From: a virus
Length of the DNA stretch: 64,000 bases
Virus record (IMG/VR): IMGVR_UViG_3300032323_000939
Location: 1-64,000 of that record
Reading direction: 5' to 3' (one strand)
The position numbers were made by a program, and so were the translations under genes. Within the stretch, counting starts at the first letter, position 1, and each line of letters starts with the position of its first letter. The notes under the pieces are model-generated. The model was not told where the DNA came from. It did not search any database and saw only the letters and a program-made list of their open reading frames with translations. Below, piece after piece: positions 10,643 to 59,098 of the stretch.

Positions 10643-11173
10643 TTATTTCAATAATAACTCTATAGTTTTTTCTAAGTCATTCTTACCAGAGTCATTTACA
10701 ATTGTATGATTAAATACGTAAGTATCCATAGCGGTCTCAGAAATATGAGAATTTATTGGAGCAACTCCTGGTCTTGCTACTCGCCAAATCTGTGCTTTGT
10801 CATACATCTTTATTGCATCCGCTTCATTTGGAAATCTAACATCAGTTATTACTATCTTTTCTAAACTACTACCTATTCCTTTTAACGCTTGATTAACCCA
10901 AAAACTGTTTCCATATCTTTCACGACCAACTTCACTTCCGTATACCTGAAGTAATCTTCTTAACTCTGGATTTTTTACCTTAGCGTTATCCCAGCCATAA
11001 GAGTCAACTAATCCTTGTACTCTAAATCCTTCTCTAACAATTGGGTTTAAAACATATATAGAGTCTCTGATTGCATCTGCAAACGCAATTCGTCTATATC
11101 CATGATTATCAATCAATACTTTTGCAACAGTGTCTTTGCCAGTTCCTGCATAACCTGATAATCCAATAATCAT
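10643..11173 (-). CDS. Deoxynucleoside monophosphate kinase
   Basis: GYAGTGKDT at residues 7-15 is a P-loop, and the later ITDVRFPNEADAI segment with the C-terminal helix fits phage dNMP kinases of the T4 gp1 type. The 176-residue enzyme transfers phosphate from ATP to dNMPs, feeding the dNTP pool with the class II reductase at the left edge. The ATG overlaps the subtilase stop as ATGA. Confidence 0.85.
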   Translation of the reverse strand: MIIGLSGYAGTGKDTVAKVLIDNHGYRRIAFADAIRDSIYVLNPIVREGFRVQGLVDSYGWDNAKVKNPELRRLLQVYGSEVGRERYGNSFWVNQALKGIGSSLEKIVITDVRFPNEADAIKMYDKAQIWRVARPGVAPINSHISETAMDTYVFNHTIVNDSGKNDLEKTIELLLK

Positions 11174-12033
11174 GATATCTTAATAAACCTTCCAGTTGTC
11201 CAAGAGTTGTGCGTAAGTATACTGGTGCTTATTAGATAAGCAAATGTTTCATCAAATGTTTCTTTTTTGTTTAAAATCCACCAACTAGCAAGTGCTGCAG
11301 TTGCGTTGGATGTTCCAATAGTTATTGATTTAGAACCATCTAAATTTAAGGTTGTATATCTTGGGTCTAAATAAAAGTCTGTTAATTCACCTGTTCCATT
11401 ACTGTAACTTGCAATTGCTGGTGTTCCGTCAGCATAGGTTAACTCAGTTGCACCAACAGAGACCGTATCTGGTAAGCAAGACGGATTCCAGACATGTTTT
11501 TTACTTCCACCATTTCCAACGGCTGCTAATACAGGTATGTTTTCTTCTTTTAACTTTGCAATTGCTTCTTTCATTGATTTTGGAACAGTACATCTCTTGT
11601 TTATACTTCCTTGAGATAAACTTACAGCGACAATATTAAATTTTTTATAATTTTTAATTACCCATTTTAAGGCAGCATTTATGTCGTCTTGATAATAATT
11701 GCTTGGAACTCCTTTATTGCTCATTCCAACAATTCTTATAGGTATAATTTTTGCAGATGGGTTTACCTGAGTAATTACTGAAATCATTTGAGTTCCATGA
11801 TCCATGTACTTGCTTTTAGTTGTAGGTAAATTTGCTGCGCCAACACCTTCCATAATTTTTTTGCCATTTGGACAGGTAAATGATGAGACTATACAGACCT
11901 CATAAATAATGCTGTCTTTAAACAATGACGTGTTTGTACCACTGTCTATAACGGCTATAGATTGAGGGTTTGTAGCGTGTACTGGTACTGCTTGACTAAA
12001 AAGCAGTACCAATACAAGTAACGCTTTTTTAAT
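11170..12033 (-). CDS. Secreted subtilisin-like serine protease (S8), probable ATT start
   Basis: The catalytic triad is visible in order: VIDSGTN (Asp30), MDHGTQM (His79), AAVGNGG (oxyanion Asn174) and IGTSNATAA (Ser242), numbered from an ATT start at 12031..12033. That start overlaps the previous TAA by one base and yields MKKALLVLVLLFSQAVPVHA, a textbook signal peptide. The first standard start codon is a TTG at 12012, which would leave only 13 residues without a positive charge before the cleavage site. The mature protease has no long propeptide. It sits directly after another exported protein, so the pair probably acts outside the cytoplasm. Target unknown: cell-surface proteins, a superinfecting phage or virion maturation are possible. 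Confidence 0.88.
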   Translation of the reverse strand: MKKALLVLVLLFSQAVPVHATNPQSIAVIDSGTNTSLFKDSIIYEVCIVSSFTCPNGKKIMEGVGAANLPTTKSKYMDHGTQMISVITQVNPSAKIIPIRIVGMSNKGVPSNYYQDDINAALKWVIKNYKKFNIVAVSLSQGSINKRCTVPKSMKEAIAKLKEENIPVLAAVGNGGSKKHVWNPSCLPDTVSVGATELTYADGTPAIASYSNGTGELTDFYLDPRYTTLNLDGSKSITIGTSNATAALASWWILNKKETFDETFAYLISTSILTHNSWTTGRFIKIS

Positions 12034-12673
12034 TCTTTACCCAATCCTTAAGTAAAGCAATTAAGTTGTTTAAATTGGCTCGTAATAAACTTAATTCTTC
12101 AGTAAGAGACGCTCTGAGTTGTTCTACAGTTTGTGATGTAGGGTAAGTTTTAGTTTCAAAATATGTACCCTGTTGTGCAAATATTGTTGCAACAGTATTT
12201 GTGTCTACTTTAGGTTTAAATTCCATTTTATTATTTTTAAAAGTATTTGGTCCAAAAGTAAGGACTTCTGAATAAACAATTGTTTTTAGTGTTGTTGTTT
12301 CTACAACTTCAGTTGTTACTGTTGGGTTTAAATTTAAAAAGAACTCTTGTGCTTGTGAGTCATACTTAACAGTCATATCAGGTTGACCTGGTTTAGGTTG
12401 TGGATTGTAATACCCACCTTGATTTTCACCTGTTACAGAATTAGCGGGAACTTGTAAAATCAATCTTTGTCCAGCAAGAGGATTGTCGTTAGGCATAACA
12501 CCACTCCAAGTTCCGTTAGCACCACACACTGATGCAGCACAAACAAGAATATTTGTTACTACACCGTTATCATCAACAACAGCATAGGTTGCGTCACCTT
12601 CTGCGTGTGCAGGAATTGCAAATAAACTACTAAAAATAGTAGTTATTAATAATACTTTAATTAAGTTTTTCAT
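12029..12673 (-). CDS. Exported protein of unknown function, partner of the subtilase
   Basis: Residues 1-24 form a clear Sec signal peptide (lysines, hydrophobic core, AHA cleavage motif before Glu25). The mature part begins with a short domain (TYAVVDDNGVVTNILVC) whose pattern resembles the start of the small tail protein at 49582..49929. Two cysteines at about residues 45 and 50 could form a disulfide. The last 50 residues are a leucine-heptad helix. It directly precedes the secreted protease, so it may be its substrate, inhibitor or chaperone; this is inference from position. Confidence 0.75.
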   Translation of the reverse strand: MKNLIKVLLITTIFSSLFAIPAHAEGDATYAVVDDNGVVTNILVCAASVCGANGTWSGVMPNDNPLAGQRLILQVPANSVTGENQGGYYNPQPKPGQPDMTVKYDSQAQEFFLNLNPTVTTEVVETTTLKTIVYSEVLTFGPNTFKNNKMEFKPKVDTNTVATIFAQQGTYFETKTYPTSQTVEQLRASLTEELSLLRANLNNLIALLKDWVKN

Positions 12674-13137
12674 GTTATGAATGTATCCCTCCGTCCCATT
12701 CGGGACTCGTTTGTTCGTCTTGTTATTTCCCTAGATACTAGGGTGATATCTCGTTCTTGATTATCAACCATCATCTCTAAGATCTTGCGATAAGCATAAC
12801 GCTCCTCATGCACATCTCCTAATTGGAGAATTTCTGGGTCAACTGAGATCTGAGCCTTAACAAGCGTGACTCGTGACCCTTTCTCTACTGAGCCCATCTT
12901 TGTGATTAACATCCTACTCTCAGCAATTTCTAGGGCTCGTTGAGCCTCACGCTCTTTTAATTGAGCCTGAACTAACTGAGACGCAAAATAATCTGCCCAA
13001 CCAGTGAGAATAGTGAACATCTCCGCTAATTGCTCACTGCTTAATTCTGTAATGTCTGGTGGAAGAATTACTTGGTCATACTTGGGCTTGGGTAAGTCTA
13101 AGCCCTTCTTCATTAAAACATCTATCTCATTCATCAT
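12670..13137 (-). CDS. Helical protein of unknown function in the recombination operon
   Basis: The 155-residue protein is almost wholly helical: an N-terminal PPDITELSSEQLAEMFTILTG segment and a long charged coiled-coil (residues about 50-155). It overlaps the Cas4-like gene by an ATGA and lies close to RecA and resolvase genes. A recombination-mediator or nuclease-accessory role would fit the position but no motif proves it. Confidence 0.72.
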   Translation of the reverse strand: MMNEIDVLMKKGLDLPKPKYDQVILPPDITELSSEQLAEMFTILTGWADYFASQLVQAQLKEREAQRALEIAESRMLITKMGSVEKGSRVTLVKAQISVDPEILQLGDVHEERYAYRKILEMMVDNQERDITLVSREITRRTNESRMGRRDTFIT

Positions 13138-25374: not shown

Positions 25375-26046
25375 TCATTTGTAGCCTTTTCTAGTCCAAA
25401 AGTTGTCTCTGTAGATGTTCTTACCTAAAGAGTCTAACATAATGTTATGTTCATTTTGCAAATCCTCATTAAACGTCTCTAACTTGACTTCCCAGTTCTC
25501 TCTTTTAAAAGGAAATATTTGATACATAGGTGTTCCTGCTGGGATCACTCCTTCAAAATCTTTTTTAAAATAAAAAGGGATATTACCAATCTGGGTATAC
25601 TGAAATTTATCTGCATCTACAATCCCAGAAATAGTGGTAAAAGGTAAATCTAACCTATTGTGCGGATGAGTAATCAAAACGCTGTAACCTTTAGGTAAAA
25701 CTGGTACCCAATAACTTCTCCAAATAAACTCTTCTTTTAGATAGGAATCTGAAACACTTAGACTAGATATAGTTCGTTTGTTAATCATCTCTAACTCTGA
25801 GTTATTTTCAATTATTAACCTATCTAAATCTTTTTTTACAATAATGTTAGACCAAGTTTGTTGGGTATAGCCAGAAGATAACGTGTCTAAGAATGGCATG
25901 CAAAACTTTAAATTATTAGAGTTAATAACTAAATCTTTTGATTTAGGCAGTTCTCTATACCAATCAGGAATTGAAAACTTAGAAGGAGTCGGTGCTGGGC
26001 ATTGTCTTTTTAAATCCTCGACTCCTTCTCTAAAAACTATTTTCAT
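25375..26046 (-). CDS. Paralogue 1 of a dUTPase-like (beta-clip-like) phage protein family
   Basis: The 223-residue protein shares with the genes at 26671..27384 and 48811..49491 the order: PSKFSIPDWYRE near the N-terminus, FCMPFLDTLSSGY, PKGYSVLITHPHNRLDLPF, TISGIVDADKFQ and FEGVIPAGTPMYQIFPFKRE. The last two resemble the dUTPase/dCTP deaminase pattern GxIDxD...I..G..IaQ. Catalytic residues of dUTPase cannot be confirmed. The family might bind nucleotides or be a structural beta-clip. It lies beside replication genes. Confidence 0.72.
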   Translation of the reverse strand: MKIVFREGVEDLKRQCPAPTPSKFSIPDWYRELPKSKDLVINSNNLKFCMPFLDTLSSGYTQQTWSNIIVKKDLDRLIIENNSELEMINKRTISSLSVSDSYLKEEFIWRSYWVPVLPKGYSVLITHPHNRLDLPFTTISGIVDADKFQYTQIGNIPFYFKKDFEGVIPAGTPMYQIFPFKRENWEVKLETFNEDLQNEHNIMLDSLGKNIYRDNFWTRKGYK

Positions 26047-26670: not shown

Positions 26671-27384
26671 TTATTGGTAACTTTTCTTTTCCCAAAAGTT
26701 CTTTTTATAAGACCCAATAAATGTCTTCAAAAAAGAATGATATCTTTTATAGTGCTCATCTGGGTTATGTTTAGTAACTTTTGAAGTCCATTTTTCTCTC
26801 TTTATAAAGTTTAATTGACATACAGGAGTTCCTGCTTCAATTACTCCTTCAAAATTTTTCTTTAATAAAAAAGGAAACTTTACTGAAATAAAAAAAGAAT
26901 CACAATCAACTATACCTGTAAGTGTGGTAAATGGTAAATCAAAACGATTTGCAGGATGAGAAAACATCACGCTATAACCTTTAGGAGTACTAATCTGCCA
27001 TTCGTTGTTCCATTTCAAAACTGCGTTATCGTACTCCTCAGTAATTGGAAGTCCATCAAATTGTTCAAAGGAATGGTGTGTCACTAGCGTACTTCCTGTT
27101 CTCCACCTAACAAATGGGCTTCCGTCTTCTGCTCGATCTACATGCAGGTCTTCATTTAAGTAAGCCATGTAACCAGAAGTCAATGCGTCTAAAAATGGTA
27201 CGCATTTTTTCATGGAAACATTTGGCATACCATACTCAAGTGGAAATTTAAGTTTTTTATCGTTATTTGTATACTGCTTTATTGCCACATACCATTTTGG
27301 AATAAATTTTGTAGATGACTTAGGAAACCCATCGGATAAGTAAGCCTCGTTATTGTCTGGAGTAAATACCACCTGTTTACTCAT
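26671..27384 (-). CDS. Paralogue 2 of the dUTPase-like phage protein family
   Basis: The 237-residue protein carries the same motifs as its neighbour at 25375..26046: KCVPFLDALTSGYMAY, TPKGYSVMFSHPANRFDLPF, TLTGIVDCDSFF and FEGVIEAGTPVCQLNFIKRE. The two copies are separated only by three short genes, suggesting local duplication followed by divergence. The ATG at 27384 directly follows the upstream stop. Confidence 0.74.
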   Translation of the reverse strand: MSKQVVFTPDNNEAYLSDGFPKSSTKFIPKWYVAIKQYTNNDKKLKFPLEYGMPNVSMKKCVPFLDALTSGYMAYLNEDLHVDRAEDGSPFVRWRTGSTLVTHHSFEQFDGLPITEEYDNAVLKWNNEWQISTPKGYSVMFSHPANRFDLPFTTLTGIVDCDSFFISVKFPFLLKKNFEGVIEAGTPVCQLNFIKREKWTSKVTKHNPDEHYKRYHSFLKTFIGSYKKNFWEKKSYQ

Positions 27385-41541: not shown

Positions 41542-43044
41542 TTAGTTCAAAGTCTTTTGACTTAGATCGATGACAATGAACTCTGCTGGGTATTGAAGAG
41601 CAACACCAACCTCTATGTGTACTTCTCCATTTGCAATTTGTTGTGCGTTATTGTTTTCATTATCGCACTTTACAAAGTAAGCCTGTGAAGCAGTTGCTCC
41701 ACGAAGACCGCCTTGATTACGGTATTCATTTAAGAATGAACCAAGACTTGTACGAATCTGTGCCCATAGACGCTCATCGTTATTTTCAAAGATTGCGAAT
41801 TCAGTAAGATTCTGTAGTTGCTTACGGATGTAGATTAATGAACGACGCATGTTTACATACTTGTTAGCAGTTCCATCTTGCTTCAAAGTACGAGCACCCA
41901 TCACTGAAAGACCAGCACCAGGAATCTGGCGAATTGGGTTTACTGGTGATGTGCTTGCGTTCATTGTGTCTAACTCAGTAGATGTGAATGACTTCTCAAC
42001 TGCAACAACTCCTAGTAATGAGGTTGTAATACCAGCAGGGGCTTTGAATACGCCTCTGTTAGCATCAGTTGTTAAGTACAAGCCAGTTACTGCACCTGCT
42101 GGGCCAATCTTACGAAGAGCGCCAGTTCCACGGCCAATTGGATCAGCAATGAAAACAGGTGGGTAGTAGACAGCGGCATGACTTGAGTCAGTTAAACTTC
42201 CCGCAAATGAAACAGCGTTAGCCACTGTTAAATCTGGATCAGTGTCAATAACTACAAATCCTTCATTGCTTTCAGCCCAAGATGTAGCAGCGTCAAATAC
42301 TGAAACTGTTCCAGAGGCTAGTGCGTTTGCTGCTGGTATAAACAGAACTAGTGCACGGTTTAAAGAGGATAGTCTTTCAAATACAGAAGAAGCAGTTCCC
42401 TTGTAAGCAGTGTAGTCAGTAGATGCTGTTGCAGTTCCATTAGATCCACCAGTTAGTGGATAGGTTGCTGAAACAATTGTTCCTGAAGTAGACGCACTGA
42501 TAGAGATGTTTGGTGAAACTAAGTTAATAACAGTCTCAGCAAAATCACTTGATGTTGGATCGTTAAATACAACATTCTCATAACGCTCCAGAAGAACGTC
42601 ATCAGTAATATCATTAGCAACACCTGACTCTTTGTAAAGAGTGAGTGTGTATGTGCTTGCAACACTACCTGCAGACACAACAACACGAAGGGTGTTGCCA
42701 TCTGTTCCTGCATTCTTTGAGGTTACAGTTGCAACTACTGCGCTTCCAGAAGTTAATAGATCTACTGAAGCAGCATCTGCATCACTTGCTAGTAGGCGTT
42801 GAACATATAGTTCACGTCCGCCATTAGCAAAGAAAGAGCCAACTTGGAAGGTGGCTGGATAGGAAGCGTTGTAGCCTCCAAAATTCTTAGTAAATTCATA
42901 CCAAGATGTAACAAGCGTTACTGATTCTGGGCCTTGTGCAAAAGGTGCAACAACTGCGCCAGCAGCATTTGCAGTAACTCCTGTTGGGAGTACTGCGGGT
43001 AGAAGGCGTTCACTGATGTAAACACCTGGACGGCTGTAAGCCAT
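41542..43044 (-). CDS. Tail sheath protein
   Basis: The 500-residue protein starts AYSRPGVYISERLLP, the normal opening of contractile sheath proteins, and ends with the conserved domain GLRGATASQAYFVKCDNENN and EVGVALQYPAEFIVIDL. Central beta domains (about 100-350) vary between phages. It shows that the virion is a myovirus. A good site, AGGAG, precedes ATG 43044. Confidence 0.95.
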   Translation of the reverse strand: MAYSRPGVYISERLLPAVLPTGVTANAAGAVVAPFAQGPESVTLVTSWYEFTKNFGGYNASYPATFQVGSFFANGGRELYVQRLLASDADAASVDLLTSGSAVVATVTSKNAGTDGNTLRVVVSAGSVASTYTLTLYKESGVANDITDDVLLERYENVVFNDPTSSDFAETVINLVSPNISISASTSGTIVSATYPLTGGSNGTATASTDYTAYKGTASSVFERLSSLNRALVLFIPAANALASGTVSVFDAATSWAESNEGFVVIDTDPDLTVANAVSFAGSLTDSSHAAVYYPPVFIADPIGRGTGALRKIGPAGAVTGLYLTTDANRGVFKAPAGITTSLLGVVAVEKSFTSTELDTMNASTSPVNPIRQIPGAGLSVMGARTLKQDGTANKYVNMRRSLIYIRKQLQNLTEFAIFENNDERLWAQIRTSLGSFLNEYRNQGGLRGATASQAYFVKCDNENNNAQQIANGEVHIEVGVALQYPAEFIVIDLSQKTLN

Positions 43045-43075
43045 GATTTCTCCTAACTAGATTGGTATGGGTTCC

Positions 43076-46260: not shown

Positions 46261-47463
46261 TTACACTGGAAACACTAGACTAGAAAGCCAAGCAGAGGTT
46301 GAGTCAGGGGTAACATTCCCATTAGTGTAAACAGTGATGTGCGTTAACTCAGAGGTGCCAAATTTTTGAGCAGGAATTACAACATCTACAGTTGGTCTAT
46401 ACTCAACTGGCAAATTAAACGCTGTAGAATTAGCAGTTCCACCAGATACATTTCCTCGTAAATAAACTACTCCATCTATTTTTTTATATGCTGGTGAGTT
46501 ACCTCCTGTATAACTATTGCTAAAAGAAGAAATTGAAATCCAACCAGAATCTGTAGTTGCACCAGAAGGACCCTGTGTGCCTTGAGTGCCCTGTGCACCA
46601 GTTCCACTAGCACCTTGTATACCGACTGTGCCTTGAATACCCTGTACTCCCTGAACGCCTTGTGCACCTTGTGCTACTGCGGAACCACTAAGTCCTTGAG
46701 CACCATTAAATCCTTGGACTCCTTGAGAGCCATCTCTACCCTGAACTCCTTGAGCGCCTAATGTTCCTTGAGTTCCTTGTAATCCTTGTACACCAATGTT
46801 TCCTCTTGTACCTTGAACTCCTTGTGCAGCAAATGCACCGTCTAATCCTTGAGTTCCTAGGGCACCTTGCACACCTTGAGTACCACGAGTTCCTTGTGTA
46901 CCTTGAATTCCATCATTACCAACGGTGCCCTGAATACCTTGTGCACCTTGTGCACCAACAGTTCCAGTTCTACCTTGAACACCCTGCGTCCCTTGGGAAC
47001 CAGTTGCACCTTGAGCGCCAGTTAATCCCTGTGCACCACGGGTGCCTTGCACACCTTGAGTTCCTGTAGCACCTTGTGTACCAGTATCGCCCTTAGTTCC
47101 TTGTACGCCTTGAGCGCCAGTAGATCCCTGCGTACCAAGTGCTCCTTGAGATCCAAGTGTGCCCTGTGCGCCAACAGTTCCTTGCGTGCCCTGTGAACCA
47201 GTCGCACCAGTAGATCCCTGTGTTCCTAACAATCCCTGTGTACCTTGTGATCCTGCAGTACCTGCAGTGCCTTGTGTACCTGCCCCAGTTGCACCACGAG
47301 AACCTTGTACACCAGTTCTACCTTGCACACCTTGCGGTCCTTGAATGCCTTGAAGAGTTGCGTCTGTTTCAATTCCTTGAACTCTTGTATTTAAATTATC
47401 TAATGCAGCATTTAAAGTAACATCCCAATTATTTGCACCTCTAACTGGCTTAACAAATGTCAT
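46261..47463 (-). CDS. Collagen-like tail fibre protein 1 (400 aa)
   Basis: Residues 1-38 are an attachment part (GANNWDVTLNAALDNLN). Residues about 39-302 are GXY triplets, mostly G-T-Q, G-V-Q or G-A-Q, with only two prolines at the ends. Residues 303-400 form a beta-rich tip (WISISSFSNSYTGGNSPAYK, DGVVYLRGNVSGG). Collagen-like triple helices in phage fibres give long rigid rods. The tip probably recognises the host. The repeats are also repetitive in the DNA, favouring slippage and length variation. Confidence 0.88.
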   Translation of the reverse strand: MTFVKPVRGANNWDVTLNAALDNLNTRVQGIETDATLQGIQGPQGVQGRTGVQGSRGATGAGTQGTAGTAGSQGTQGLLGTQGSTGATGSQGTQGTVGAQGTLGSQGALGTQGSTGAQGVQGTKGDTGTQGATGTQGVQGTRGAQGLTGAQGATGSQGTQGVQGRTGTVGAQGAQGIQGTVGNDGIQGTQGTRGTQGVQGALGTQGLDGAFAAQGVQGTRGNIGVQGLQGTQGTLGAQGVQGRDGSQGVQGFNGAQGLSGSAVAQGAQGVQGVQGIQGTVGIQGASGTGAQGTQGTQGPSGATTDSGWISISSFSNSYTGGNSPAYKKIDGVVYLRGNVSGGTANSTAFNLPVEYRPTVDVVIPAQKFGTSELTHITVYTNGNVTPDSTSAWLSSLVFPV

Positions 47464-48810: not shown

Positions 48811-49491
48811 TTAGTTGAACTCCTTACGAGTCCAAAACATTGTTTTATATTTATCAAAAAATTTTGTAACTAATATACTAGTTACTTTATTCTGTTCTTT
48901 TATTTCTTTTTCAAATCCTAGTTTTATTTGCCATTTGTCTCTTTTAAAAGGTATAACTTGTGCTATTGGAGTTCCTTTTGGAATGAGTCCTTCAAAGTTA
49001 GGATCATTAACAATAAAAGGAAAATTAACTGGAGCAGTATAAGTATCCGTATCTACAATTCCTGGAAGAATAGTAAATACTGCTTCTCTGTGCATTGGTT
49101 GGGTAAATAAAGTTGAATATCCTTTAGGAGTTTTAACAGCCCAAGGGTTCATCCATTTAGGATAAGCGTGTTGATTACGTGCTGGATGGTTAGGCGCTTG
49201 TTCAATTGGGTGGAAACTTATAAGCCCCAAAGAAGACCATTCAAAAAATTGAATACTTTCTTTAAGACTTACGTATACATCAGCAGGTGAAGTAATGATA
49301 TACCCAGCAGTTATAGCATCAAATACTGGTATACAACGTTTTATTGTAGCATCAGTAGCGCCTGCACCAGTTGGTTTTTTAATGTTGCCAATATAAGATT
49401 TAGTGTCTTTGTACCAATCTGGTGTAAATTTGGAAGCAGGTTGTGGCTGTTCTATGTCCACACCAGATGTGTTAGTAAATGTGATCTCCAT
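48811..49491 (-). CDS. Paralogue 3 of the dUTPase-like phage protein family
   Basis: The 226-residue protein matches the two copies near 26 kb in motif order: PASKFTPDWYKDTKSY, RCIPVFDAITAGY, TPKGYSTLFTQPMHREAVF, LPGIVDTDTYTAP and FEGLIPKGTPIAQVIPFKRD. The last resembles the dUTPase/dCTP deaminase loop G-x-x-IAQ. This copy is 22 kb away in the fibre region and is preceded by its own promoter (49526..49553), so it is expressed separately. Confidence 0.76.
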   Translation of the reverse strand: MEITFTNTSGVDIEQPQPASKFTPDWYKDTKSYIGNIKKPTGAGATDATIKRCIPVFDAITAGYIITSPADVYVSLKESIQFFEWSSLGLISFHPIEQAPNHPARNQHAYPKWMNPWAVKTPKGYSTLFTQPMHREAVFTILPGIVDTDTYTAPVNFPFIVNDPNFEGLIPKGTPIAQVIPFKRDKWQIKLGFEKEIKEQNKVTSILVTKFFDKYKTMFWTRKEFN

Positions 49492-53885: not shown

Positions 53886-54610
53886 ATAAGTGTACCTTTG
53901 AAGTATTTCATACCGATACGGGTAACTCACTTCGTAATCAATCTTACAATAATATCCTAGAGACAATGGCTGAGGTACCTAGACTTGGATCTCCTACCTA
54001 TTACTTAAACACAAAAGAAAAAGCAGAACAATACCTATCTCAAGAAGATGCAGTAAAAATAAACGTAGTTGAAGATTATGCCCAACCAGGGGAGACCTTC
54101 CCTCCTAGTTCTGGAGTAGTTGGAGTATGGGCTAGTAACTATGAGGCGTATAAAGCCTTCTTAGAGACTGATAAAGAGTACCTAATTATTTTTGAAGACG
54201 ATGTAGTACTTAGCAAGAATTTCTTGACGGTATTAGAAACTTATGTAAAGGAATTGCCATATGACTGGGATTTCTTTTCTTTCTTTGTTCCTGATGATTC
54301 TTTATTTGCATACACTCAAGAACATAATATTGGGCAATTATTTGTGTGTAGGTCATATCAGCAGTGGTCATGCGCTGGCTATATAGTCAGTAGGCAGGGT
54401 GCTGAGAATGTCTTACGTAAGGTAAGGAACCAAGGAGCCAGTGCCCCAATAGATTGGTTTATATTTAATTTTAGAATGAAGAAAGAGGATAACCAGCCAG
54501 TATTTGAGACCTACACTTTAAAGCCGCATGTGTATAAGCCAATTAAGTTTTTATTAGGCGCAGCACAGTACAGTCAAATACATAATGGCAGTACAGAAGT
54601 TATTGTTTAG
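53879..54610 (+). CDS. GT25-type glycosyltransferase
   Basis: The 243-residue protein shows GT25 motifs: [34 protein letters not shown] (the DxD-like EDD) and the [15 protein letters not shown] loop. GT25 enzymes include LPS beta-galactosyltransferases and collagen hydroxylysine galactosyltransferases. Its start (TTG or CTA-region after the methyltransferase) is at 53879, and its end overlaps the convergent collagen-like gene by four bases. Confidence 0.82.
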
Positions 54611-55893
54611 TAAATACCCATAACTATTTCTTCTGCAGTTACTGTACCTGTTGGAGCAGTTCCTGCTGTTCCTTGAGCACCCAAAGTTCCTTGTGTACCT
54701 TGCGAACCAATAGTTCCTTGAGTTCCAACACCAAGTGTTCCTTGCGTACCCTGTGCACCTGTAGCGCCTTGAGAACCTAATGCACCCTGAGAACCAACAG
54801 TTCCTTGAGCACCTGTGTTACCTAATGTTCCCTGTACTCCTTGGGTTCCTTGAGTACCCTGAACTCCTTGAGCGCCTAGTGTTCCTTGAACTCCTTGAGA
54901 TCCAACAGTTCCTTGTGAACCTTGTGCACCAGTTAATCCTTGAAGGCCTGTTGTAAAGAGAATTAATTCAATAGCATTATTGTTAGCAAATGAGTTATTT
55001 CCAGCGCCACCATCACCTGTTCTTGTTACTGGAATCTTTACATAACTATTTGTTACAACAGTTACAGCGCCAGTTACTTCATAAGTAATGTAGATATTTG
55101 AATCGGCTTTTTCTTGGATAATGATGTTGTCGTACTGCTTAACAAGTCCTAGATAGACGTCAATATCAACAGCACTGTCATTGATGTGGTCTACGTAGAG
55201 GAAGGTTGCAGATGTCTGCGTTGTGTTATTCCAACGAAGTTTTCCTGCACCTGGACGAGCATCTGCTGTTGTTGTATCAGCCTTGTAGTTAAAGTTAGAG
55301 GTAGAACCACCATTTAAACCAGCAGTACCTTGAACACCCTGTGCACCGTCTACGCCCTGTGTACCTTGAACGCCTTGAACTCCTTGTGTTCCTTGTATAC
55401 CTTGAACGCCTTGAGTACCATCAGTTCCTTGTGTGCCCTGAGTTCCCTGAGTTCCCTGAGTACCCTGAGTACCTTGAGTTCCTTGAATAGAAAGACTCTG
55501 TACACCTTGGGTTCCTTGGATGCCTTGAGTTCCTTGTGTACCTTGGGTGCCCTGTACTCCTTGTGCACCGTCTACACCTTGAGTGCCCTGTGTACCTTGG
55601 GTTCCTTGAGAACCAGTTTCTCCCTGTACACCTTGTAAACCCTGTACTCCTTGAACGCCCTGTAATCCTTGAACACCCTGCAAACCTTGAACGCCTTGAA
55701 CTCCTTGAACTCCTTGAACTCCCTGAATACCCTGTAATCCACCATAGGCTAAACCAGCCCAGTCAGATGTTCCGTTACCAACTTTAAATTTACCAGTGTC
55801 TGTCTCTGTTCCTACTTCACCAGCAGCAAGCGTTGGATTATTAGCAGTCCATTGAGCCGCAGTACCACGACGTAGTTTGATTGTTACTGACAT
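54607..55893 (-). CDS. Collagen-like tail fibre protein 2 (428 aa)
   Basis: Residues 1-51 ([40 protein letters not shown]) are the attachment domain common on phage fibres. Collagen blocks cover about 52-196 and 317-411, almost all G-x-Q triplets without proline, with one break (VQSLSIQG). Between them a beta module at 197-315 ([19 protein letters not shown]) resembles the modules of fibre 3. The end is a short SEEIV-like tail. It faces the GT25 gene, its possible modifier. Confidence 0.88.
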
Positions 55894-56179: not shown

Positions 56180-59098
56180 TTAGGCTTTAACTACTACTCT
56201 ATAGGTCTCACCTGATGCAGGAGCAACTGCGAATCCAATTGCAACTCGGTTAACAGTTGATTTTGTAACATCGGTTACTACCTCTTGAGCAGTTGCGATA
56301 TCCCAGACAGTTACAAGAATATCTGTGGTGTTTAAGTTGTGATCGATATTAAAGGATGTTGCAGAGTATGGACTTACTGGAGTAATGGTCTCTGCGTAAG
56401 ATCCAAGTTGACCAGAGATACCTTGAGCACCCTCTGTTCCTTGGGCGCCAGTAGTTCCTTGAGTACCTTCCGTACCTTGGGCTCCAGTTGTACCTTGTAC
56501 ACCAGTAGCACCATCTAGGTTGATAGACCAAACAGCGTATGTTCCAGAACCTCTAACGTCATTGACGTTTACAACGAGTGTGTTAGTTCCTGATGTGTAA
56601 CTGACTACAGTTGCAGACATGTTGTTGTTTACATCGTAAGCAACTACTACATCTTGACCTACTGAGTATGAAAGATTTGGATCAGCCAGTACAAAACTTA
56701 CGTTGTTTGCTACTGCAATTGAACGTGATGTTGTAGAGGTTGTCTTGTAGCGATCAGATAGTCCTTCTGTACCTTGAGCACCCTCTGTACCTTGGACGCC
56801 TTGAGTACCGTTTGTACCCTGAGTTCCTTGTGATCCTTCAGTTCCTTGTGATCCTTCAGTTCCTTGTGATCCTTCAGTTCCTTGGGCACCGACAGTACCT
56901 TGAGTACCTTCAGTTCCTTGAGAACCTAAAGTACCTTGTACGCCTTGTGCAGCAAGTAATGTCCAGAATGTTCCTTCTGAAGGAGTATCTCCAACATTTC
57001 CACCATTAGCATTTTTGCGGTACCAAGTCTGTCCTTGGTAAGTTGCTACATCGCCAACTGCATATGGTAGTCCTGGGTTATAAGCGCCAGTAAAGTTCCA
57101 AAGTGCCGCTGTACCTTGAGTACCTTGCGTTCCTTCAGTACCCTGAGATCCAACTGTTCCCTGGGCTCCTTCAGTACCTTGCGCTCCTTCAGAACCTTGT
57201 ACGCCCTGCGTACCTTGGGTTCCTTGAACTCCCTGTGTACCTTCAACACCCTGTACTCCTTGAGTACCCTGTGTGCCTTGGGCTCCAAGTGTTCCCTGTG
57301 TACCTTGAGAACCAACGGTACCTTGTACACCCTGTGCACCAGTTGTACCTTGAGCACCAGTATCACCCTTGTCACCGACTCGTGCAAAAGTTAAGTAGGT
57401 GTTGTCATTGTTATCAAGTGCTAGTGGTCCCGATACGTATGCAACTGGAACTGTAAAGTAAGCACCAGCATTTTCATTATGAGTTCCAATAATCTGGAAG
57501 AATGCATAGTTAAGAGGATCAGTAATATCTGTTACTTTAATTGTTCCCTTGATGCCTGATGTTGAGTCATCAATAGTTTGAAGGAATGATGTAATGTTAA
57601 CTGCATTTGCATCGATATTATCAATGTAAAGTTCAGTTACAGATGAAAATGTTGTAGAGTCAAACTTGTAGTTACCTGCAGTTGGATCTGTATCTGCGGT
57701 ATTAGTTAGGTAATTGTACTCAAATGTTTCTCCACCAAATGTACCTGTAGCACCTTGTGTACCTTCAGTACCCTGGGTACCTTCTGCACCCTGAGTTCCT
57801 TGAGTACCTTGGGCTCCTTCAGATCCTTGTAGACCTTGAGTACCTTGGGTTCCTTGAGTACCTTGAGCACCGAGAGTTCCTTGTACGCCCTGTGTTCCCT
57901 GTGTACCTTGGACTCCTTGAGTTCCTTCGGTTCCTTGTGTTCCTTGAGCGCCTTCGGTTCCCTGGGCACCTTCAGTTCCTTGTGTACCATCAGTACCTTG
58001 CGTACCTTCTGTACCTTGAGATCCTACTGTGCCTTGAGTACCTTGTGCTCCTTCTACGCCTTGTACACCCTGTGTTCCCTGAGTTCCCTGTGCGCCAAGA
58101 GTTCCTTGTGTTCCCTGTGAACCAACGGTTCCCTGTACGCCCTGGGCTCCTTCAGTACCTTGTGTACCTTGAGCACCAACATCACCTGTACGTGCAAATG
58201 TAAAGAGTAAATCATCTCCATCAGTAAATGTTCCATTACCAGAAACATAAGCAACTTCTACATCAAACCAATTTGGTGCTGTGTCTGTAACACCAGCAAT
58301 TGTGTAAAGTGCAAAAGTAGCGGTATCAAATTTCTTAGATACCTTTACGTGACCCTTGATAGTAGAAGTTGAATCATCAATTGTCTGTAAGAAGTTAGAG
58401 ACGTCATAGTTACCATCAGCAGGATTATCATCTAATGCAATGCGTGTAACTAGAGTTAAATTGGCATTATTTAGACGAGCATTGTTGTCGCCTGGATCTG
58501 CCATTGTAGTAGTGTCATCATAAATATACGCAACTGTGATACCACCAAAGTTACCTTCAGCACCCTGAACACCTTGCGATCCTTCAAGACCTTGAGCACC
58601 AATTGTGCCTTGTGTGCCTTGCGCTCCTTCTGCTCCTTGAGTTCCTTGAGTTCCTTCGGAACCTTGTACGCCTTGCGCTCCTTCAGAACCCTGTACTCCT
58701 TGAGTACCTTCGGTTCCCTGCGTTCCTTCGGTTCCCTGTGTACCGTTAGATCCATCAAGACCCTGAGCACCATCAAGTCCTTGTGCTCCAGCAGTTCCCT
58801 GAGTTCCTTGAGAACCAAGTGTGCCTTGAGTGCCTTGTGAACCTACAGTTCCTTGTACTCCTTGTACTCCTTGTGCACCAGTAGTACCTTGGGTACCCTG
58901 TGCTCCAGTAGTTCCTTGTGCACCAGTGCTGCTATTAATCCATGCAGAGCCGTTCCAAGTGCGTAGAAAACCTAGTACTGTGTCAAAATAGATTTGGCCA
59001 ACAACAGGAGATCCTGGGGCCTCGGCTAAATTTTGTATTCTTGCATTTAGTAATTCTAATTTAGTTAAATCAATCGGGGTTAAAAACTTACGTGCCAT
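56180..59098 (-). CDS. Collagen-like tail fibre protein 3, modular (972 aa)
   Basis: Residues 1-58 form an attachment domain ([20 protein letters not shown]). Four or more GXQ/GXE collagen blocks alternate with beta modules: two related modules with [18 protein letters not shown] and [18 protein letters not shown], a ChtBD3/CBM5-like module ([18 protein letters not shown]), and a module with [18 protein letters not shown]. The end ([20 protein letters not shown]) is a standard fibre tip. Prolines are nearly absent from the repeats. It is the largest fibre, with clear ribosome site AAGGAG before ATG 59098. Confidence 0.9.

Follow-up and report, generated by a model that had tools for sequence, protein, structure and literature searches.

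A candidate ATT start codon overlapping the upstream stop codon, with a conserved RNA hairpin behind it, in a phage gene for a putatively secreted subtilase

Introduction

How does a phage gene for a secreted protease begin when neither ATG, GTG nor TTG is found where its signal peptide should start? This question is raised by a subtilase gene on the minus strand of a 64,000-nt window (the whole stretch of DNA analyzed here, which is part of a 95.5-kb virus record). The initial annotation proposed a start at an ATT codon that overlaps the TAA stop codon of the preceding gene. Very few bacterial genes are known to begin with ATT. The rare starts on record include ATT in Escherichia coli infC (IF3), ATC in Streptomyces infC, and GTC in Streptomyces sigR (PMC5472188), and initiation at ATT reached about 0.3% of that at ATG in de novo tests in E. 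coli (PMC10666635), which counts against the use of this codon here. Translational coupling by overlapping stop and start codons is established for ATGA, TGATG, and -8 overlaps (PMC10666635; reviewed in PMC12548453). Overlaps of -5 nt are possible only with ATT and are more than 1000 times rarer than those of -4 nt (PMC10666635); they have so far been regarded as virtually nonexistent or as mistakes of annotation. In the Sindbis subgenomic mRNA, a downstream hairpin (DLP) is located in the coding region about 24 nt after the start, where it marks the codon to be used and tolerates non-AUG codons (PMC5327398). The ATT start, the coupled overlap, and the downstream hairpin are all known kinds of element, and the locus described here is a variant of them.

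Gene order and properties of the subtilase

The minus-strand gene order was RecA-like, small genes, WhiB, Cas4-like exonuclease, g155, 'up', subtilase, dNMP kinase, and RuvC-like gene, in agreement with the earlier placement of the subtilase and 'up' among replication and recombination genes. The g155 gene (12670..13137, minus strand) encodes 155 aa without a known family and anchors an accessory slot. It is followed by 'up' (12029..12673, minus strand), which overlaps the preceding gene as ATGA and encodes an exported protein of 214 aa, also without a known family, with the C-terminus ..LLKDWVKN*. Its N-terminus, MKNLIKVLLITTIFSSLFAIPAHA|EG, was judged by eye to be a Sec signal peptide (12673-12602, minus strand), as initially annotated. 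The subtilase gene (peptidase S8; 11170..12033, minus strand) encodes 287 aa counted from the ATT, and its stop overlaps the ATG of the dNMP kinase gene (10643..11173, minus strand) as ATGA.

The subtilase assignment was borne out by Pfam (Peptidase_S8, E 3e-10), with the PF00082 profile scoring 40.2 bits against a curated cut-off of 21.8. The catalytic Asp (D30, 11944..11946), His (H79, in DHGT; 11797..11799), and Ser (S242, in GTSNA, a GTS-A motif; 11308..11310), together with the oxyanion Asn (N174, 11512..11514), all on the minus strand, were invariant in 76 of 76 distinct sequences. The AF2 model (pLDDT 90.4, pTM 0.91) showed a subtilisin fold, and Foldseek related it to 2gko (E 4e-11) and to BPN' (TM about 0.7). 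Its closest known counterparts within family S8 were mycosin-like proteins (NCBIfam hits) and, by fold, S41 protease, subtilisin BPN', and PatA/PagA. The phage subtilase resembles these known enzymes in its catalytic D/H/S, oxyanion N, and fold, but shares only about 20% identity with them, lacks an I9 propeptide, and is encoded in a phage replication operon. The I9 propeptide is usual for secreted subtilisins, though not for all S8 peptidases; here, Pfam returned no match to it, and the signal peptide runs directly into the first catalytic strand. An identity as type VII mycosin (TIGR03921) was rejected, as the score of 36.5 bits fell far below the equivalog cut-off of 278.75. The enzyme likely acts outside the cytoplasmic membrane and possibly, as was suggested earlier, against the host surface or competing phages.

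Start codon of the subtilase gene

The subtilase frame on the minus strand reads TAA (12039-12037), AGA, ATT (12033-12031), AAA, AAA, GCG, TTA, CTT, GTA, TTG (12012-12010), GTA, CTG. The in-frame TAA is located two codons before the ATT, and no earlier start is therefore possible. The 'up' frame (12673-12029) terminates with AAT TAA, and the ATT (12031..12033) and the TAA (12029..12031) have one T in common, resulting in an ATTAA junction with an overlap of -5 nt. This geometry requires a start codon ending in the T of the stop, which excludes ATG and equally GTG and TTG. Read from the ATT, the peptide (M)KKALLVLVLLFSQAVPVHA|TNPQ is a standard Sec signal peptide as judged by eye (positions 11974..12033, minus strand, with (M/I)KKALLVLVLLFSQAVPVHA cleaved after VHA). 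The first standard start codon of the frame is the TTG at 12010..12012, and the peptide read from it, MVLLFSQAVPVHA, contains no basic residue; the earlier remark that this form would lack the positively charged end was thus correct.

A scan with g155 yielded 80 related loci, most of which contain the subtilase, and these revealed three classes of start. Subtilase genes of class (i), which lacks 'up', have an ATG start that in most cases forms an ATGA overlap with the g155 stop. The Met of these relatives aligns with the ATT of the window in the same frame, and K or R is present at residues 2-4 in all 57 of them; an ATG at this position in a different frame had been named as possible evidence against the ATT, and this check came out the opposite way. 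In class (ii), 'up' ends in W-L/I/V-I/L-D or -E, and an 8-nt overlap (TTGAYTAA or TTGAATAA) contains the TTG start of the subtilase, which is located one codon before the ATT position in close relatives. Class (iii), in which the C-terminus of 'up' is W-V-K-N, no longer contains the TTG and is left with the ATT alone. Counted with the window, this class amounts to 11 contigs (the window, L002, L034, L049/L351, L050, and the L020 group), and no ATG, GTG, or TTG able to supply a signal peptide was found in it. The 94% identical relative L002 retains the ATT and contains CTG in place of the TTG at 12012, which is also CTG in L034 and L050 and is not conserved. Furthermore, L002, L034, and the L020 group contain no in-frame ATG, GTG, or TTG before the catalytic Asp. 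An unrelated exported gene precedes the subtilase in L047, where the junction is also ATTAA, but an in-frame ATG is located inside the upstream gene. A survey of phage loci, both related and random and totaling about 2.5 Mb, turned up no gene other than the subtilase that combines a -5 ATT overlap with a lack of in-frame standard starts both upstream and within its first 7 codons. A degenerate junction pattern was too loose for use in IMG/VR, and a narrower one mainly returned known members and unrelated contigs.

Selection on the protein body was evident in pairs from the three ATT clades, with dN/dS values of 0.29, 0.16, and 0.04 (Fisher p 0.003, 7e-11, and 1e-4, respectively), close to the range of the ATG and TTG pairs (0.02-0.28). 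This purifying selection, together with the invariant catalytic residues, indicates that the subtilase is very probably translated and useful despite having no standard start. The conservation of the ATT itself was dropped as proof of its use: since 'up' ends with Asn-stop and AAT accounts for 54% of Asn codons here, the invariance of the ATT alone says little. Likewise, the 'up' homologues of L123 and L124 end in KN-TAA in front of tRNA genes, with no subtilase, so that the letters AATTAA are partly a property of the 'up' protein. Strong evidence for the putative ATT start comes instead from the absence of other starts combined with the selection on the protein. An explanation by a Shine-Dalgarno site was abandoned because the SD-like AAGGA is not conserved, and sequencing error was rejected as the source of the ATT because independent contigs agree. 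As far as sequence can tell, the initial observation is right and stronger than first claimed, since the ATT is the sole start that yields a full signal peptide and it recurs in further lineages. Gene callers restricted to ATG, GTG, and TTG lose or truncate such secreted phage proteins; the mechanical list of open reading frames begins the L002 subtilase beyond its catalytic Asp.

In a tree built on the catalytic domain, with the start region left out, all subtilases behind an exported gene except that of L059 formed one clade (SH-aLRT 96). ATT occurred in three clades within it ({window, L002}, {L020, L034}, and {L049, L050}), which were interleaved with TTG. L048 (TTG) and L020 (ATT) form a near-isogenic pair in which 'up' is nearly the same over its 5' part and the subtilases agree at about 93%. 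Identity falls to about one half in the 3' end of 'up', with about 93-98% retained in both flanks; this 3' end was swapped, and with it TTG was exchanged for ATT. In the pairs L049/L050 and L020/L034, the subtilase bodies are very similar and the signal-peptide codons and hairpin arms are clearly different, which suggests recombination at this segment.

A conserved hairpin after the start codon

While the ATT start of the initial annotation stands, a covarying hairpin in the same region was missed. The signal-peptide codons are predicted to fold into an RNA hairpin of -21.3 kcal/mol (11979..12015, minus strand; 5' arm 12015-12001, loop 12000-11994, 3' arm 11993-11979) that begins at +19 from the A of the ATT. 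The stem is 14-22 bp long in the non-ATG genes, and in each of the 18 coupled genes that belong to the clade, the 5' end of the hairpin is located 8-16 nt past the upstream stop. In the ATT class, it starts at +16 to +19 from the ATT, 10-13 nt past the stop. Start regions were compared with 200 synonymous-codon shuffles that preserve the protein, and the median z was -5.8 in the six ATT genes (0/200 shuffles in 6 of 6), -4.9 in the twelve TTG genes, and -0.12 in the 57 ATG genes. Repeating the comparison on an enlarged set of loci with a fixed folding segment yielded medians of -5.2 for the non-ATG genes and -0.3 for the others. The three genes scoring below -3 among those assigned automatically to the 'ATG' bin (L030, L046, and L294) are coupled to 'up' and have their in-frame ATG within the upstream gene. 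The hairpin was the sole folding outlier along 'up' and the subtilase, and the subtilase start region had the lowest z among 73 genes of the window. The second lowest (-4.3) belonged to a sheath-like gene at 41545-43047 (minus strand).

The 18-bp stem was 93.5% paired across 17 distinct aligned sequences, compared with 23-48% in slid registers. Two-sided changes were seen in seven stem pairs (21 cells against a shuffled mean of 6.5, with 0/500 as high, such shuffles being lenient because the rows are related). The stem sequences vary by lineage (GUACUGGUACUGCUU, UGUAUUGGCGUUAC, CUGGUACUACUUG, and CUUGGGUUGGUACUGCUU), and the opposite arm changes to match, sometimes through amino-acid changes. 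The many retained G-U pairs point to the coding-strand RNA as the folding molecule. The junction gave nothing near the gathering scores in an Rfam search, no terminator-like site was found at the hairpin, and promoter-like sites were at chance level. Weaker evidence supports a second predicted hairpin (12029..12064, minus strand, in the window, with counterparts in L034 and L050), which would pair the AAUUAA of the start and stop with upstream coding sequence.

The hairpin tracks the coupled, non-ATG lineage and is well supported as an element of these sequences, and a role in initiation is proposed for it. L059 has a TTG start without a hairpin, and thus the hairpin is not required for every non-ATG start. 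Apart from L059, the hairpin and the non-ATG start are confined to one clade, which makes the two inseparable, and their link is confounded by phylogeny. The idea that the hairpin belongs to an 'up' module was dropped, because downstream TTG genes in phages with 'up' only are mostly without it.

Alternative explanations and proposed mechanism

If translation began at the internal TTG (12012; CTG in relatives), the product would have a short signal peptide or would be a leaderless intracellular protease. TTG is a standard start and is present at this position in the window, L049, and L351; however, its replacement by CTG extends to the 94% identical L002, the KK n-region would be removed although K/R is kept in all ATG relatives, and the codon lies within the hairpin stem, where pairing explains the U/C toggling at this Leu codon. 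A start at this TTG therefore appears highly unlikely. The loss of every standard start in L002, L034, and the L020 group might also indicate a decaying, untranslated gene whose start disappeared when the upstream gene was swapped, which is scarcely credible given a dN/dS of 0.04-0.29 and an intact triad in all ATT pairs, together with uninterrupted frames of about 280 codons in independent contigs. A fusion of the subtilase to 'up' by frameshifting, with the hairpin as stimulator, would account for a stable hairpin after a junction where the frames overlap at the stop, but appears very improbable. It needs a shift of +1 (or -2), for which the re-pairing of tRNA-Asn from AAU to AUU would be poor, and the 'up' frame contains no -1 slippery heptamer; -1 frameshifting at AAAAAAG was rejected because it leads to the wrong frame for both genes. 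Usual -1 frameshift spacers are shorter than the 10-13 nt between stop and hairpin in the ATT class. Moreover, the protease of such a fusion would be expected on the cytoplasmic side of the second hydrophobic segment, and the sister phages use a TTG start.

Coupled re-initiation at the ATT in a secreted, catalytically complete accessory subtilase, with a downstream hairpin, is the explanation that we consider probable. Ribosomes finishing 'up' at the UAA would move one nucleotide and re-initiate at the AUU, as they would at the TTG inside the 8-nt overlap TTGAYTAA of the sister phages. The base of the hairpin, about 16-19 nt from the first base of the ATT, would meet the leading edge of a ribosome with the ATT in the P site, and the hairpin ahead may hold a post-termination or initiating ribosome on the weak start. 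Bacterial toeprints place the front of a ribosome with this codon in the P site at approximately the position of the hairpin. A different account competes solely with this hairpin step: the hairpin could be a site of mRNA processing, stability, or protein binding, or an elongation brake in the signal peptide, and the ATT would be used by plain coupled re-initiation. A stem of 14-22 bp could suit a double-strand RNase, and both L059 and most of the 'up'-only phages have TTG starts without a hairpin. The fixed place of the hairpin just past the overlapping stop and start and its absence from all directly g155-coupled ATG relatives argue the other way, although phylogeny alone could explain both. 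This account deserves serious consideration, at somewhat less than an even chance.

Returning to the hairpin-assisted start, the locus resembles infC and sigR in having a protein-coding gene with a start other than ATG, GTG, or TTG, and the ATC and GTC cases come from an actinobacterium. Those are experimentally proven host regulatory genes with IF3 control, whereas the present gene, known from its sequence, encodes a secreted phage protease and overlaps the preceding stop at its start. The tight operon and the overlapping stop and start resemble those of termination-reinitiation pairs, since neighboring junctions are ATGA and the sister phages show the -8 overlap TTGAYTAA; what differs is the -5 ATTAA overlap, which is conserved here across lineages. 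A conserved stable hairpin at a fixed short distance after the start, within the coding region, is also a feature of the alphavirus DLP, with a function that would be similar here. On the other hand, the DLP acts in 40S initiation in a eukaryotic virus and has no homology with the phage hairpin. By analogy, the locus could tentatively represent a prokaryotic counterpart of start selection by a downstream hairpin, in which the hairpin captures post-termination ribosomes on a non-AUG codon and the interchangeable 3' end of 'up' supplies the start; we regard this as possible rather than probable. If it holds, such capture would make the -5 ATTAA overlap workable. The locus opens the questions of how post-termination ribosomes choose a weak start and whether downstream structure helps them, for which it offers many natural sequences of one gene that starts with ATG, TTG, or ATT according to its upstream neighbor.

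Accessory genes and putative host

The 'up' product is a variable exported protein with beta strands and C-terminal helices (AF2 pLDDT 90.9). A fold search found no PDB match and one uncharacterised phage protein in BFVD, and phage GenBank records contained no relative of 'up' and only matches of 25-31% to the subtilase. The initial annotation treated the two exported genes as a pair; their co-occurrence in g155-anchored loci did not depart from independence (18 with both, 5 with 'up' only, 29 with the subtilase only, and 7 with neither; Fisher p = 1). This chance-level co-occurrence indicates separable accessory genes in one slot and no obligate pair. Homologues of 'up' in L123, L124, L125, and L126, which end in or near WIKN/WIKK-stop, are located beside tRNA arrays without a subtilase.

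The slot, which is bounded by g155 and the RuvC-like gene, seems to be a hotspot of genes for secreted accessory proteins, and it also accepts other exported genes in L009, L047, L069, and L070. Interchangeable exported proteins were observed in this slot in L009, L010, L012, L013, L015, L047, L069, and L070; its contents include the subtilase, several 'up' alleles, a T/S/P-repeat protein (L047), and a P/T/S-rich protein (L069 and L070). In the 'up'-only loci L010, L012, L013, and L015, the TTGACTAA end of 'up' provides a TTG start for the following 98-aa gene, and thus the 3' end of the upstream gene holds the start codon of the next gene.

The nearest non-phage relatives of the subtilase (41-50%) are chromosomal-looking genes in actinobacterial and Nanopelagicaceae MAG contigs, which have ATG starts and signal peptides and are without phage neighbors. 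The phage also encodes WhiB and a Cas4-like exonuclease closest to Streptomyces phages. Taken together, these affinities suggest that the host is probably an acI-type lake actinobacterium and that the subtilase is perhaps host-derived. WhiB is mentioned in publications on acI phages, isolated as well as metagenomic, and their main text, when searched, yielded no protease.

Elsewhere in the window, three related proteins of 223-237 aa without an assigned function (25375-26046, 26671-27384, and 48811-49491), one of which is located far from the other two, have a pattern around KFxPxWY and FEGxIxxGTPxxQ in common. Long collagen-like GTQG/GVQG repeat proteins are encoded in the structural region (46261-47463, 54607-55893, and 56180-59098).
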